The position numbers and the translations under genes are program-made. The notes beneath the pieces are model-generated. The model saw nothing but the letters and a program-made list of their open reading frames with translations. It had not been told where the DNA came from and made no database searches. This document shows, piece by piece, positions 40,669 through 48,635 of a stretch of 64,000 nucleotides of DNA. The DNA is from Methylomonas fluvii (GTDB lineage: Bacteria > Pseudomonadota > Gammaproteobacteria > Methylococcales > Methylomonadaceae). Numbering within the stretch: the stretch's first letter is position 1; every line of letters begins with the position of its first letter. Location of the stretch: positions 682,001 through 746,000 of the forward strand of contig NZ_JACXST010000001.1 of assembly GCF_014850975.1 (NCBI RefSeq). Direction: 5' to 3'.

Positions 40669-43500
40669 ATGACCATGGATTACAAACAAACCCTGAACCT
40701 CCCCAAGACCGAGTTTGCGATGAAAGCCAATCTGGCGCAACGCGAGCCGGAGATGCTGAAAAAATGGAACGAAAACCAGCTCTATCAAAAAATTCGCGAG
40801 GTCTGCGCCGGCCGGCCTAAATTTGTATTGCACGACGGCCCTCCTTACGCCAACGGCGCGATTCATATCGGCCACGCGGTCAATAAGGTGTTGAAGGACA
40901 TCATCGTCAAATCCAAAACCCTCAGCGGTTTCGATGCGCCTTACGTGCCTGGCTGGGATTGCCACGGTTTGCCGATCGAATTGATGGTAGAAAAGTCGGT
41001 CGGCAAGGCCGGCGTCAAAGTGTCGCCTGCCGAATTCCGTAAAGAATGCCGCGCCTACGCCAAGAAGCAAGTCAATATCCAGAAAGAAGAATTCATTCGT
41101 CTGGGTGTGTTGGGCGATTGGGACAATCCGTATTTGACCATGGATTTTGCCTTTGAAGCCGACATCGTCCGCGCCTTGGGCAAAATCGCCGCCAACGGCC
41201 ACCTCAGCAAAGGCGCCAAGCCGGTGCATTGGTGTACCGATTGCGGCTCGGCGCTCGCCGAGGCGGAAGTGGAATATGAAGACAAACACTCGCCGGCTAT
41301 CGACGTGCGCTTCTCCGTGGTAGACGAACATGCGTTCATGGCCAAGTGCCACCACGCCGGCGATCGCGAAGGCAAAGGCCCGCTGTCGGTGGTGATCTGG
41401 ACCACCACGCCGTGGACGCTGCCGGCCAACCAGGCCGTCGCGCTGAACCCGGATCTGGAATACGCGGTCGTGCAATGCGACATCGACGGCCAAACCGAGC
41501 GCCTGGTCATCGCCGAAGCCTTGTTGAAAGACGCCGTTTTACGTTATGGCATCGGCGAACATCACATCGTTGGCTACTGCAAAGGCGCGACCCTGGAAAA
41601 TCAACTGCTGCAACACCCGTTTTACGACCGGCAAGTGCCCGTCATATTGGGCGATCATGTGACCACCGATGCCGGTACCGGCGCGGTACACACCGCCCCC
41701 GGCCACGGCCAGGAAGACTATGTCGTCGGTATGAAATACGGCCTGCCGGTAGACAACCCGGTCGGCAGCAATGGCGTATTTTTGCCAAGTACAGAACTGT
41801 TCGCTGGCCTACATGTGTTTACCGCCAACGATAAGGTGCTGGAAGTGTTGCGCGAACGCGGCAAGTTATTGCATCACCATGCCTTGCTGCATAGCTACCC
41901 GCATTGCTGGCGCCACAAAACCCCGATTATTTTCCGCGCGACCCCGCAATGGTTCATCTCCATGGAGAAAAACCGCCTGCGCGACACTGCCTTGAACGAA
42001 GTGAAGCGGGTGGACTGGATTCCCGATTGGGGTCAAGCTCGCATCGAAGCCATGCTGAATAACCGGCCGGACTGGTGTATCTCCCGCCAGCGTACCTGGG
42101 GTGTGCCGATTGCCTTTTTCGTGCATAAAGAATCAGGCGAATTGCATCCGCGTACCGGCGAATTGATTGAGCAAGTAGCCAAACGTATCGAACAACAAGG
42201 CATAGACGCCTGGTTTGAACTGGACGCCGCGGAATTGATTGGTGCCGATGCCGAGCATTACCAAAAAATGACCGACACGCTGGATGTCTGGTTTGATTCC
42301 GGCGTGACCCATGCCGCGGTTTTGGAGCGCCGCGAGCAACTGCGTTTTCCGGCCGACCTGTATTTGGAAGGCTCGGATCAGCATCGCGGCTGGTTCCAGT
42401 CATCCTTGTTGGCGTCGGTAGCGATGAACGACGTCGCGCCGTATAAACAAGTCTTGACCCACGGCTTTACCGTCGATGCCGAGGGCAAGAAAATGTCCAA
42501 ATCCAAAGGCAACGTGGTGTTGCCGCAAACCGTGATGAAATCGCTGGGCGCGGACGTATTGCGTTTATGGGTGGCCGGCACCGATTACCGCGGCGAAATG
42601 TCGGTGTCCGACGAGATTTTGAAACGCACCTCCGACGGCTACCGTCGCCTGCGTAACACCGCGCGCTTCCTGCTTTCCAATCTGGACGGTTTCGATCCGG
42701 CGCAACATCTGGTCGCCAAAGACGATTTGCTGGCGTTGGACCGTTGGGCCGTCGATAAAGCTTGGCAGTTGCAGGAAGAGATCAAAACGGCGTACCACAC
42801 CTATCAGTTCCAAAGCATCTACCAAAAAGTGCTGACCTTCTGCAGCATCGACTTGGGCGGTTTTTATCTGGACATCATCAAGGACAGACAATACACCGCC
42901 AAGGAAGATTGCCTGGCCCGACGCTCCGCACAAACCGCGATGTACCATGTCATCGAAGCCTTGACCCGCTGGTTGGCCCCCATCACCAGCTACACCGCCG
43001 ACGAATTATGGCAATTCATTCCCGGTCAACGCGGCGAATCGGTATTTCTGGAAACCTGGTACGAAGGCTTGTTCCCGCTAGACGCCAACGCGACGATCAG
43101 CCGCGACACCTGGGACAAAGTGATGGCGGTACGCACCGTGGTGTCCAAAGAGTTGGAGCAACTGCGCGGCAAGGGGGCGATTGGCGCTTCGCTAAATGCC
43201 GAAGTTGAATTGTATTGCGACGAAACTTATGGTGCGGAGCTAAACAAACTGGCCAGCGAACTGCATTTTGTCTTTATCACTTCCAACGCCGGCGTCGCCG
43301 ACATGCAATTCTGCCCGGACGATGCGGTAGCGACCGAATTGGACGGCGTAAAACTAAAAGTGACGGTATCCGAGCATCCAAAATGCGTGCGCTGCTGGCA
43401 CCAACGCTACGACATCGGCGAAAACCCTGAGCATCCGGAACTATGCGGACGCTGCGTGGAAAACGTCGCCGGCAATGGCGAGACCCGTCGTTATGCTTAA
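40669..43500 (+). CDS. ileS: Isoleucyl-tRNA synthetase
   Basis: Class I aminoacyl-tRNA synthetase that charges tRNA-Ile, about 943 aa. HIGH is read in [11 protein letters not shown] and KMSKS in [10 protein letters not shown]. The editing domain has [13 protein letters not shown]. The C-terminus carries the zinc site with two CxxC pairs ([16 protein letters not shown]). E. coli IleS begins MSDYKSTLNL, so [11 protein letters not shown] at 40669 (or the ATG at 40675) is preferred over the ATG at 40651. It overlaps lspA by 8 nt, the conserved ileS-lspA pair. Confidence 0.97.
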
Positions 43501-43972
43501 GTGGTTGTGGATTTCCGCGGTCACACTGATCCTTGATCAGGCCAGTAAGCTGGCGGTGGACGGTAACATGCAGCTGTTTGAATCGATTCCGCTGCTGCCG
43601 TATTTCAACCTGACCTACGTGCATAACACCGGCGCGGCCTTCAGCTTCCTGGCTCAGGCCGGCGGCTGGCAGCGCTGGCTATTCGCCGGCTTGGCGGTGG
43701 TGATGAGCAGCATCATTGCCGTCTGGTTGCATCGTTTAAAAAAACACGAGACCTTGATGGCCGTGGCTTTGTCCTTGGTTTTGGGTGGCGCCATCGGCAA
43801 TCTGATTGATCGGGTGGCTTATGGCTATGTGATCGATTTTCTGGATGTTTATTACCAAAACTGGCACTGGCCGGCATTCAATATCGCGGATTCGGCGATT
43901 TGTGTTGGCGTGGGTTTGATGTTGTTGGAGAGTTTTGGGGTTGGGCGGAAAGTTGTCGACGTTTTGGAATAG
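43493..43972 (+). CDS. lspA: Lipoprotein signal peptidase (signal peptidase II)
   Basis: Inner-membrane aspartyl protease that removes signal peptides from prolipoproteins, 159 aa with four TM helices. The two catalytic Asp motifs are intact (IGNLIDRV and FNIADSAI), as is the N-terminal Asp-Lys element (LDQASKLAV). The ATG at 43493 overlaps the ileS stop; an ATG at 43475 would add MARPVV. Confidence 0.96.
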
Positions 43973-44073: not shown

Positions 44074-44328
44074 GGTGTCGCTAACGCGACGGCTGATTTT
44101 AATGTCGGGTCTCGGCCCGACAGCCGAGATACTTTCTTTTGCTTGGCCAAAAGAAAGTATCCAAAGAAAAGGCCACCCGGACGCCGCTTTTCCCCTGCGC
44201 TCCTCGCTTTTGAACGGGGTTGCCGAAAGGGGCTTCCTGCCCCTTCGGCAACGCGATGCATCCCTGCATCGCCCCTGCGGGCTGTTCCGTTCAAAAGCTC
44301 CGGTGCTCGGCGCGGCATACGGGAGAAA
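44074..44328 (+). repeat. Long structured repeat, left copy (inverted relative to right copy)
   Basis: About 255 bp that reappears in inverted orientation at 45998-46253 with high identity. Shared blocks include GTCGGGTCTCGGCCCGACAG, TGCGCTCCTCGCTTTTGAAC and GCTCGGCGCGGCAT-type ends. Internal hairpins are strong: GTTGCCGAA...TTCGGCAAC at 44219-44252 with GGGGC/GCCCC inside, and a GCGATGCA/TGCATCGC-type pair just after. It has no transposase. Apparent ORFs in it are repeat translations, not genes. The two copies flank the nuclease/peptidase fusion gene. Confidence 0.85.
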
Positions 44329-44521
44329 AACAATCCCATGATTTTAAAAGTGTTTGGCATTGGAAAATCCAAGCTGCAATAGCACCAATGTATTGCTCCA
44401 ATTTAAAGACTAATATTCCTTGTAATAAAGCGAATTCCTAGTACCCCCTATAATCTCTCTTTATAGGACTGGATTTCACTTTAGCTAACCCAATCACTCT
44501 CGAAAATCTATAAGAATTGCC

Positions 44522-45856
44522 GTGGATACGACAGTAAAAGGAAACCAATTAGAAGACCAAGTTTATGCTTTGTTTTCTAAAATGATCTCAGAAGGCCAAT
44601 TCCCTGCCCGGAGCGAGCATTGCCAGATTTACAAAAAGAAGGGCTATTACTCGAAAGATCGAGAAAATGAAATTATCTTTGATATTTCCATAGAGATACG
44701 GTTTCCTGGGCAAAGCACCCTTTTTATGTTGGTTCTCATTGAATGCAAGAATTATAACCACCGTGTACCTGTTGACGATGTAGAAGAGTTCTTTGCGAAA
44801 GTGGAGCAAGTATCTCCTTCGAACACCAAATCAATAGTTGTTTCAACGAACGCGTTTCAAGAAGGCACATTCAAATTTGCCAAATCTAAAGGAATGGCGC
44901 TTCTGCGTTATTTTGATCCAGAAGAGCATGACTGGGTACTCACACGCTCCCCATCAATTACTGCTCCTTGGAACATTGCTAATTCAAGTTTTTCCAACAC
45001 ATATAAGGGCCTGCATTTACAAGATTACGTAAGTAGATATTTTGACTTCTATGGATTTATCGGTGGCACTTACATGAACTCGCTGAATCAGTTTTTTAAT
45101 GAAATTGTTCAGTTAGACTCCGACCGAAAGGTAGCAGAGTTACTCGAAGGACTAAGGTGCGAAACTCAGTCCAATACTTACTTGGTTTCTTACAGAGAAA
45201 CCGAGGAAATAGAGTCTCTCTCCCAAGATATCTTGAAAAAAGTTAATTATGTTGATGGCGCCGCACCGCTAGATGAGATTTGCGAGTCCCTAGCCATAGG
45301 TTTAGGACTAGAAGTAAGGAGAACAGCTAATTTGGCAAAGGGAGTACTTGGTACCATTTCGTTTAATCCACCGATAATACAAATTGACGACGTTCAGGCA
45401 GGTGGAGAGCCAAGAATAAGATTTACTGTCGCTCACGAATTGGGGCACTTTATCCTTGGACATCAAAGGTATATGACGAAAGAAAAATGCCATAAACAAG
45501 ACATTGAGCCCGAAAGTGCTGAAGATATTTGCATCAAAGACATTGCACGTATGGAGTGGCAGGCAAACTATTTTGCCTCGTGCTTGCTACTTCCCAGCGA
45601 ACAATTACTAATGTCATTCCGATCAGAGCTTACGAAGCGGGCAGTTGTTGATCGAGGGTACGGACTGCTATACCTAGATGACCAGCCATGCAATGTAGAC
45701 GCTTATTATGCGGTCACCACACCGATAATGAACAAATTCAATGTCTCTCGAAGTGCAATTAAAATAAGACTTAAACACCTTGGCCTATTGAGTGAAAATA
45801 CATCTCTGAGGCGGCTAAAAACTACAAGTACGTTTTGGAGTGTCGGTGATTCATAG
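44522..45856 (+). CDS. Restriction-endonuclease-like / ImmA-IrrE-type metallopeptidase fusion
   Basis: A 444 aa cytosolic protein starting at a GTG. The N-terminal ~150 residues look like a PD-(D/E)xK (Mrr-like) nuclease. Glu11 is in GNQLEDQVY, Asp54 follows IIF, and Glu74-Cys-Lys76 lies in LVLIECKNYNHRVP. The middle (~150-270) is unassigned. The C-terminal part is an ImmA/IrrE zinc peptidase with His305-Glu-Leu-Gly-His309 and a third-ligand Glu345 in MEWQANYFASCLLLP. Such peptidases cleave repressors in phage or stress circuits. The gene is AT-richer than its neighbours and is enclosed by two long inverted repeats, consistent with transfer. No XRE partner is adjacent. Confidence 0.82.
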   Translation: MDTTVKGNQLEDQVYALFSKMISEGQFPARSEHCQIYKKKGYYSKDRENEIIFDISIEIRFPGQSTLFMLVLIECKNYNHRVPVDDVEEFFAKVEQVSPSNTKSIVVSTNAFQEGTFKFAKSKGMALLRYFDPEEHDWVLTRSPSITAPWNIANSSFSNTYKGLHLQDYVSRYFDFYGFIGGTYMNSLNQFFNEIVQLDSDRKVAELLEGLRCETQSNTYLVSYRETEEIESLSQDILKKVNYVDGAAPLDEICESLAIGLGLEVRRTANLAKGVLGTISFNPPIIQIDDVQAGGEPRIRFTVAHELGHFILGHQRYMTKEKCHKQDIEPESAEDICIKDIARMEWQANYFASCLLLPSEQLLMSFRSELTKRAVVDRGYGLLYLDDQPCNVDAYYAVTTPIMNKFNVSRSAIKIRLKHLGLLSENTSLRRLKTTSTFWSVGDS

Positions 45857-45997
45857 CCTAGATTAAGCTCGTATGTGCTGAACAGTTAGGAGCGCTTCGT
45901 TCGCGACCGTTGCGCCTCGCCGCAGGCTCGGCACAACCTATGGATGCGCAACTTTTTACGTTGATCGTACCAGATTGAATTTCAAATCTGCGGCGGG

Positions 45998-46253
45998 TTT
46001 CTCCCTTATGCCGCGCCGAGTACCGGAGCTTTTGGACGGATTAGCCCGTTAGGGGCGATGCATGGATGCATCGCGTTGCCGAAGGGGCAGGAAGCCCCTT
46101 TCGGCAACCCCGTTCAAAAGCGAGGAGCGCAGGGAATAAGCGGCATTCGGGTGGCGTTTCTTTTGGTGACTTTTCTTTGGCCAAACAAAGAAAAGTTACT
46201 CGGCTGTCGGGCCGAGACCCGACATTAAAACCAGCCGTCGCGCTAGCGACACC
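45998..46253 (-). repeat. Long structured repeat, right copy (inverted)
   Basis: Reverse-complement copy of the element at 44074-44328, differing by scattered substitutions and small indels, including in the block around 46120-46205. The conserved hairpin arms GTTGCCGAA and TTCGGCAAC are present in inverted order at 46075-46108. It begins 141 nt after the stop of the fusion gene. Confidence 0.85.
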
Positions 46254-46632
46254 TAAAACACCAACCGCATTGGCGTTATCGCCGAAATCTCAAATCCCGC
46301 CCACAGAACCGTTACGCGGAAAAATTATCCTTGTCCGTTGATAACCTAATCAGCTGGCAATCTTGAGCTTCGGCAAATTCGGAACACAACCCCAGCCACG
46401 CTAAGGTCAAAAATCCCACGTCAAACAAACCGCTAACCCTTCCTGCCACTCACACAATTCCGCGAATTTGAATGACGGTAGCTATTTTGCGCTACAGATT
46501 ACAAAAGTTCCGGGTAATTTGTTTCCATAAAGGAAACAAATAATGAATTAAATGCCTGATTGTAAATAATTTTGGCAGGTATATAGTGAAGTCGTACTTA
46601 CAAAACGACTAAACATAGTCAAGGTGGACCCC
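46254..46632. other. Intergenic leader with a 9-bp palindrome
   Basis: No gene is seen. TTTGTTTCC (46518-46526) and GGAAACAAA (46532-46540) form a perfect inverted repeat with a 5-nt spacer, about 93 nt ahead of the small membrane ORF. It could be an operator or a hairpin. A TATATAG motif lies at about 46579-46585. No regulator can be named. Confidence 0.45.
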
Positions 46633-47350: not shown

Positions 47351-47540
47351 TTCTCCCGCAATTTGGCGCTGCGGCTATCGAGGACTAAAAGCCTTCACTT
47401 CGCTGCCGCTGCGTTTCCAAAATTGAATACACAAATCATCATCAATGTACTGAATGGTTCGTGATGAATGGATGTCATTTAACAGGGGTTTAACGATCCA
47501 GTATGGTGTTGCCTAACCCAACAACTTACTGGAGATGATA

Positions 47541-48635
47541 ATGAACCGTGGAATCCTATTTTGCACCGCCATGGTGTTTACGGCCTTTGAGGCTTTGGCG
47601 GATGGCAATTCAAATTTTGATGTATTCGCCAACCTCGATAACGGCCCAGGCAATGTCACGGCCACGGCCAACGGCCGGATCATCATGAGCCAACATCAGT
47701 TTTATCAACCGCAATACACCGTGGTGGAATACAAGGATCAAACCTTGCTGCCTTTTCCTAATAAGGAGCTGTCCGCGGCCGACTCGACTGCGCCGATCAA
47801 ACTCGACTCGGTGCTGGGTATCCGCTCCGATAGCAACGGTGTCGTCTGGATGCTGGACAACGGCATGCGCAGCGGCGTGACGCCCAAGCTGGTTGGCTGG
47901 AATACCAAAACCAACAAACTCCAGCGGCTAATTTACCTGCCGGCCCCGATTGCCCCGAAAGATGCGTTCGTCAACGACTTTGCGTTGGACACCCACCACA
48001 ATCATGCCTTCATCAGTGATCCGGCCGGCGGTGCCAATGCCGGCTTGATCGTGGTCAACTTGTCCACCGGCGCGGCGCGGCGGGTGCTGGAAGGCCATAA
48101 AAGTGTGATACCGGAGAACGTCGATTTGGTCATCGATAATGTGCCGATTCAGGTCAAGACTCCGACGGGCGAATTGGTGAAGCCGCATATTGGCGTGAAT
48201 CCGATTACCGAAGATTTGGCCAACGAATGGGTCTATTTCGGCCCGATGCACGGCCTCAGTCTTTACCGGATTAAAGCGGCGGACTTGATCAACGAGTCGT
48301 TAACGCCTGAAGAACTCGCGAAGCAGGTGGAACGCTACAGCGACAAACCGATTTCGGACGGCATCAGCATTGATGAAAACAACAATATTTATCTGGGGGA
48401 CTTGGCGAATAATGCGATTGGCGTGATCGCGCCTAACCGCCAATACCGGCAATTGGCCCAGTGTCCAAGATTGTCATGGGTGGACTCGTTTAGTTTTGGT
48501 GCCAACGGACAACTCTATGCAGTGGTGAATCGCTTACATCGTTCGGCCACACTGAACGGCGGCGACAACCAATCCAAACCGCCTTACTTTCTGTTGAAGG
48601 TCAAAGCCTTGGCTGGCGGATTGCCGGGACGTTAA
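47541..48635 (+). CDS. Secreted SMP-30/Yellow (major royal jelly)-type beta-propeller protein
   Basis: A 364 aa exported protein. The ATG at 47541 has a GGAG site and starts a signal peptide (MNRGILFCTAMVFTAFEALA). The body has beta-propeller blades typical of the SMP-30/MRJP group (LGIRSDSNGVVWMLDNGMRS; FVNDFALDTHHNHAFISDPA; ISDGISIDENNNIYLGDLAN). A catalytic lactonase role is not proven. Its stop overlaps the LysR stop by 4 nt in convergent orientation. It is the outermost gene of the pxm block. Confidence 0.8.
   Translation: MNRGILFCTAMVFTAFEALADGNSNFDVFANLDNGPGNVTATANGRIIMSQHQFYQPQYTVVEYKDQTLLPFPNKELSAADSTAPIKLDSVLGIRSDSNGVVWMLDNGMRSGVTPKLVGWNTKTNKLQRLIYLPAPIAPKDAFVNDFALDTHHNHAFISDPAGGANAGLIVVNLSTGAARRVLEGHKSVIPENVDLVIDNVPIQVKTPTGELVKPHIGVNPITEDLANEWVYFGPMHGLSLYRIKAADLINESLTPEELAKQVERYSDKPISDGISIDENNNIYLGDLANNAIGVIAPNRQYRQLAQCPRLSWVDSFSFGANGQLYAVVNRLHRSATLNGGDNQSKPPYFLLKVKALAGGLPGR

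Follow-up and report, generated by a model that had tools for sequence, protein, structure and literature searches.

Inverted multi-hairpin repeats bound chromosomal slots whose genes turn over between Methylomonas species

Introduction

Defence genes and other accessory genes enter and leave bacterial genomes rapidly, and the clean chromosomal entry of single genes without a mobility gene is poorly understood. Integron cassettes carry promiscuous cargo, mostly unknown genes and some defence-like ones, at a fold-bearing boundary. Neisserial intergenic mosaic elements are repeat arrays thought to aid the exchange of the genes that they flank, and REPs are short palindromes. Among peptidases, CapP and PprI/IrrE cleave a repressor when triggered by single-stranded DNA. 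In the minimal mobile elements of Neisseria, as outlined in PMC3082526, two conserved genes enclose different whole-gene cassettes in different strains by way of homologous recombination. REPINs, associated with RAYT transposases, are outlined in PMC3390384 as inverted pairs of a palindromic repeat present in many copies.

Here we analyse a locus within the window, the whole 64,000-nucleotide stretch of Methylomonas DNA under study, in which inverted repeats of ~257 bp enclose a cargo gene only (positions 44075-46254). This locus is probably one cassette in one of many fixed slots, all delimited by inverted pairs of one ~257-bp multi-hairpin repeat. Slot contents turn over from one Methylomonas species to the next, likely through homologous recombination in repeats and flanks. 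Searched by phrase, the titles and abstract openings of a limited open-access literature did not describe such slots, a result that concerns those texts and is not a claim of absence from print.

Results

A nuclease-peptidase gene between two inverted repeats

The cargo protein of the window cassette (Table 1) presents the PD-(D/E)xK residues and the fold of an Mrr-type restriction endonuclease, together with an HExxH motif, a downstream Glu and the M78 fold. The earlier note, made from the letters of the DNA, had placed a nuclease and a peptidase fold in one gene between long inverted repeats; the Mrr_cat and Peptidase_M78 domains with their invariant catalytic residues confirm the former, and the ~90% identity of the two repeats the latter. 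Between the repeats, neither a CapH-type HTH regulator beside the M78 gene nor a mobility gene was found. By analogy with CapP, PprI/IrrE and Mrr nucleases, the cargo may be a single-protein sensor-effector, whose CapP/PprI-like domain would sense single-stranded DNA and unleash the Mrr-type nuclease on phage or damaged DNA.

Table 1. Features of the window cassette and its neighbours (positions in the window)
Feature	Position	Strand	Remark
Left boundary repeat, outer to inner end	44075..44334	+	One of 52 copies in genome
Right boundary repeat, inverted copy, ~90% identical	45998..46254	-	
Structured core of left repeat, outward-reading strand	44176..44324	-	Model R1
Structured core of right repeat, outward-reading strand	46002..46151	+	Model R1
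Cargo gene, 444 aa, Mrr-type PD-(D/E)xK nuclease fused to CapP/IrrE-like M78 peptidase	44522..45856	+	
Mrr_cat domain, aa 37-128	44630..44905	+	D54, E74, K76 invariant
Peptidase_M78 domain, aa 296-418	45407..45775	+	H305, E306, H309, E345 invariant
lspA, conserved left neighbour of slot	43475..43972	+	
366-aa gene, conserved right neighbour of slot in G019, G020, G025	47535..48635	+	

The repeat occurs in many inward-facing pairs

A census by the inner-end motif (at most two mismatches) counted 52 copies in the window's own genome (G000; other Methylomonas genomes are numbered G0xx, and individual loci Lxxx), and 60, 59 and 62 in G020, G024 and G025, respectively; read backwards, the motif had no copy in the own genome. 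There, 32 of the 52 copies form 16 inward-facing pairs, mostly enclosing single genes, among them those of an FRG-domain protein, an HNH protein, a DUF1152 protein and membrane proteins. Adjacent copies less than 4 kb apart were inward-facing in 16 of 19 cases in G000 and in 19 of 26 in G020, against chance expectations of 0.47 and 0.63 and a maximum of 5 in 5000 simulations. GC content was lower inside the pair than in its flanks in all 15 own-genome pairs measured.

These counts bear on the proposal that the gene and its own repeats form a self-contained mobile defence module. The gene does adjoin the repeats with nothing else between them; however, the other pairs all surround other genes, the interval holds no mobility gene, and gene relatives elsewhere lack the repeat (0 matches of model R1 in 14 loci, some of them short; no inverted repeat of at least 25 bp in two family loci), so that this proposal retains hardly any credibility. 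What holds of it is that the contents are mobile and the cargo defence-like. The earlier note had named a fixed gene together with independently scattered repeats as telling against its own reading. Scattering of the repeats independently of the gene was found, whereas the gene does not keep a fixed place: it occurs in only 4 of 237 genomes of the family, own included (E <= 1e-60), and the orthologous site carries other genes in other species. A related-locus search on unspecific peptide patterns returned 80 loci and no Methylococcales relative.

Within the genus, the repeat was matched in 34 of 37 Methylomonas genomes. A covariance-model survey, in which at most 11 matches per genome were scored and the E-values of model R1 are rough, detected the element in 29 of the 274 gammaproteobacterial genomes and in 26 of 222 genera, the own one counted. 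The 28 loci taken from other genera extend at most ~1.5 kb per side, and 13 of them show a second copy in reach; the 14 adjacent pairs comprise 12 oriented as in Methylomonas, one opposite and one tandem, mostly with short spacers. Therefore, the paired element is wider than Methylomonas, and large turnover of cargo is demonstrated in Methylomonas only.

The repeat folds, as its mismatches indicate, on the strand that reads outward

Alignment of 50 repeat copies yielded a 53-pair multi-hairpin in which 98.2% of cells pair. On both sides, 25 of the 53 pairs vary, and the covariation score was unreached in 500 shuffles. Over 83 pairs, mismatches on the inward strand were 289 A-C versus 61 G-T (494 versus 331 when shuffled); this excess of A-C over G-T identifies the wobble-tolerant strand as the one reading outward from the cargo, as an indication and not a p-value, the sequences being related. 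An earlier fold with other settings gave a sparser structure and a strand count pointing the same way (97 A-C versus 26 G-T cells). The outward-reading fold may act as RNA, for example by ending transcripts that leave the cassette and thereby sparing the neighbours from the new gene.

Some repeats, at L054:4522-4892 and L057:2178-2573, contain extra hairpin-rich modules at defined points, common to several copies. We do not identify the repeat with sX7, as its Rfam matches in the window are sub-threshold (22.4 and 19.7 bits against a cut-off of 55), and sX7 was absent from 12 loci of other genera, which gave two sub-threshold matches to other Rfam families. One element copy of another genus includes a sub-threshold match to TwoAYGGAY RNA (L216:946-1010, minus strand; 40.6 bits, cut-off 43).

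Repeats at the same site and the same end retain a site-specific hairpin type despite different cargo (columns 131-150 and 171-180; 89-90% versus 70-73% elsewhere), and in the outer third of the repeat the likeness between sites nearly equals that within sites. These patterns touch on the view that the repeats serve solely as structured RNA at gene ends (terminators or insulators), with variable genes gathering between them because the place is harmless and the repeats taking no part in exchange. The strong covariation, the outward-reading strand assigned by mismatch type and the outward-facing pairs in other genera agree with such a role, but same-slot repeats are conserved with identity dropping at their inner ends and, as described below, a switch between two slots lies inside a repeat, which makes this view very improbable.

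Orthologous slots mostly hold different genes in different species

Slots were compared among the pairs of G000, G020, G024 and G025 plus one slot of a fifth genome, with 900 bp per side; the loci that supplied the pairs had been selected for their visible copies, which under-counts solo copies and wide pairs. The resulting 78 cassettes fall into 29 sites, 20 of them common to at least two genomes, with up to four species per orthologous site. Among 86 same-site comparisons, 57 involved unrelated cargo, 9 shared part of the nucleotides, 8 encoded the same protein (blastp over >80 residues, or >60 in one earlier comparison), 6 were empty on both sides and 6 opposed an empty to a filled slot. 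The median proportion of a cargo covered by that of the other species was 7% (74 comparisons), against 100% in the flank control (162 intervals, none under 30%). These results show that the slots are orthologous across species and that cargo differs while flanks are conserved.

In Methylomonas, paired repeats lie 69 bp to 3.7 kb apart. Edges of the same slot just inside the repeats stay somewhat alike (49-58% versus 26-47%) though the cargo differs. A Pfam scan of 40 cargo ORFs left 23 without a family at E <= 0.01 and placed 11 over the family cut-off; these 11 include a deaminase, restriction enzymes of Mrr type, and proteins with KAP, PIN and HNH matches.

The slot of the window illustrates this turnover. 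In G000, G019, G020 and G025, which are species and not strains, it is flanked by lspA and the 366-aa gene. The repeats are at the same place in G019, enclosing 235-aa and 477-aa proteins, in G025, enclosing an Mrr enzyme, and in G020, which contains a cytidine-deaminase protein and, in a second compartment, the 477-aa gene. In G024 the left repeat is followed by a 475-aa protein and then by IS110 and other genes. In G013, G010 and G001, lspA is followed by different genes, and the genes beyond it differ in G024 as well. The 539-aa deaminase protein of G020 (dCMP_cyt_deam_1; L055:1008-2627, plus strand) resembles by eye the AvcD anti-phage deaminases; labels given here without a Pfam match (AvcD-like, Dam-type, RAYT-like) were assigned by eye.

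At tusA-argJ, 37 genomes display the slot in several states. The site is uninterrupted in 17 genomes, has ~110 bp between its halves in two and 1.2-4.2 kb in 15; in the remaining three it is split over two contigs, has halves far apart or is represented by one half only. All 15 occupied sites are bounded by an inward-facing pair and hold 13 cargo sets, G001, G025 and G029 being counted as one for their common genes; some different sets still have ~150-bp edges in common. The repeat was absent from the six of the 17 uninterrupted sites that were read and from both ~110-bp sites. As these six uninterrupted sites lack the repeat, the slots must once have been inserted. In G024, the cargo of this slot resembles by eye a type II restriction-modification pair, with a 275-aa protein and a 305-aa Dam-type methylase (L281:862-2606, plus strand).

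Breakpoints lie in flanks, at repeat ends and inside a repeat

When the same cargo in the same slot was compared with its flanks, it was more alike than these in four of 10 comparisons (three of them one cargo), about equally alike in four and less alike in two; at tusA-argJ, the same cargo was more alike than its flanks in all three cases. The cargo common to G000 and G020 is 97.2% identical over 1795 bp between flanks of 80-85%, and that of G001 and G025 96.4% over 1289 bp with flanks of 89%. Between G025 and G024, an identical tract takes in the whole cassette, ~100 bp of flank on one side and, on the other, at least 460 bp of flank, as far as the scan reached; this pattern fits allelic recombination. 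The high-identity unit of G000 and G020 stops at both outer repeat ends, which recombination within the outer repeat portions could explain as well as movement of the whole unit could.

Content common to different slots is rare and partly consists of IS110. In G024, one 2283-bp content (a 272-aa gene plus an IS110 copy) lies in the two slots L186 and L195 with 99.87% identity. The L195 repeat beside the gene is identical to that of L186 from position 151 inward, and its outer ~150 bp are native to the site: over positions 50-149 it shares 90-100% with the site orthologs and 70-80% with its L186 counterpart. Since the site orthologs of L195 stay 90-100% alike to about position 250, the switch lies between ~150 and ~250. 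This single slot-to-slot event, the one dissected here, has the form expected after a crossover between two dock repeats. At its far side the tract stops where the IS110 copy does, and this element is present in both slots and at two further places among the examined loci of G024; that end was perhaps made by a crossover between IS110 copies or by the IS itself, and the exchange may thus have used the IS on that side. Near-identical IS110 copies also lie inside several cassettes of one genome (L186, L195 and L196; L149 and L150), so cassettes are landing places for insertion sequences as well.

Searches for a recombinase or transposase

No dedicated recombinase for the cassettes was found. An integron integrase was rejected as a general driver, exceeding the cut-off in G020 alone of the four genomes and not in the own genome. 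A RAYT/Y1 transposase was likewise rejected as the driver: every one of the four genomes has PF01797 (Y1_Tnp) matches, but 24 of the 27 lie outside cassettes. Target-site duplications of at least 6 bp were seen in none of the 69 testable cassettes (of 78), with a mean of 0.32 against 0.50 for shuffled partners.

RAYT-like ORFs were noted in seven of the 78 cassettes, three by PF01797 and four by eye (one of these four without a Pfam family). Cargo of RAYT-like HUH transposase type lies at L149:4049-4795 (minus), L188:4258-4860 (plus) and L158:4793-5329 (minus; this last one assigned by eye alone). Short REP-like GTAGGGTGGGC hairpins were noted by eye near several cassettes, and one repeat copy adjoins a broken Y1_Tnp reading frame (G000:C3:558608-558803).

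In the main rival explanation, the repeat pair is a large REPIN- or MITE-like transposable element that is non-autonomous: a transposase from elsewhere, for example HUH/RAYT, would move repeat, cargo and repeat as a whole. The G000/G020 unit ending at both outer repeat ends, the sites devoid of any repeat, the mostly short spacers of pairs in other genera, the Y1_Tnp matches in every one of the four genomes and the RAYT-like ORFs speak for it. Nevertheless, orthologous sites in up to four species hold different cargo, only three Y1_Tnp matches fall in cassettes, target-site duplications are lacking in the testable cassettes, and the G024 switch point is inside the repeat; we consider this explanation unlikely. 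Homologous recombination is favoured because there is neither target-site duplication in the testable cassettes, nor an integron integrase over the cut-off in the own genome, nor a cassette-linked majority of PF01797 matches. Several observations speak against it: the IS110 end of the G024 tract, the limits of the G000/G020 unit, the same-slot cargo that is no more alike than its flanks, the likeness of slot edges around different cargo, the rarity of content common to different slots, and the initial insertion that the slots require.

Discussion

Exchange by homologous recombination would proceed as follows. After DNA uptake or other transfer, RecA-type recombination would exchange cassettes, with the repeats supplying homology between any two slots and the flanks supplying it between the same slot in different strains. 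A bolder, tentative and on balance doubtful extension is a distributed gene-cassette system with about twenty interchangeable docks in each genome, all marked by the folded repeat. The single-stranded form of the repeat (ssDNA or outward RNA) would be the recognised recombination signal, any captured gene could be moved between docks and strains, and many gammaproteobacterial genera would use the same paired element. The genomes of one genus permit the dock to be read in its empty, filled and absent states, as well as the switch point within a dock repeat, and the mechanism is therefore directly testable. Moreover, docks provide a search handle for unknown small genes.

Regarding the cargo, the window peptidase differs from CapP, of the CapH/CapP regulators of CBASS, and from PprI/IrrE in being fused to an Mrr-type nuclease and encoded by the sole gene between the repeats. 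Regarding the boundaries, the lack of target-site duplications in the testable cassettes separates the Methylomonas cassettes from a transposon with inverted ends. Like REPINs, the repeats form inverted pairs in many copies, but each is ~257 bp long with several hairpins instead of a short palindrome, the spacer in Methylomonas is not uniformly short, and PF01797 genes lie mostly elsewhere. The slots share promiscuous cargo and a fold-bearing boundary with integron cassettes, from which they differ in being dispersed and bounded by inverted pairs, with the integron integrase below the cut-off in three of four genomes. The likeness to minimal mobile elements consists in the same conserved neighbours (lspA and the 366-aa gene; tusA and argJ in 15 genomes) with different cassettes between them, and the Methylomonas breakpoint patterns, as far as sequence comparison goes, would fit the homologous recombination described there. 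Methylomonas differs in that the boundary is a folded repeat and not just flanking genes, and in that one repeat family bounds many slots, so that content can pass between slots.
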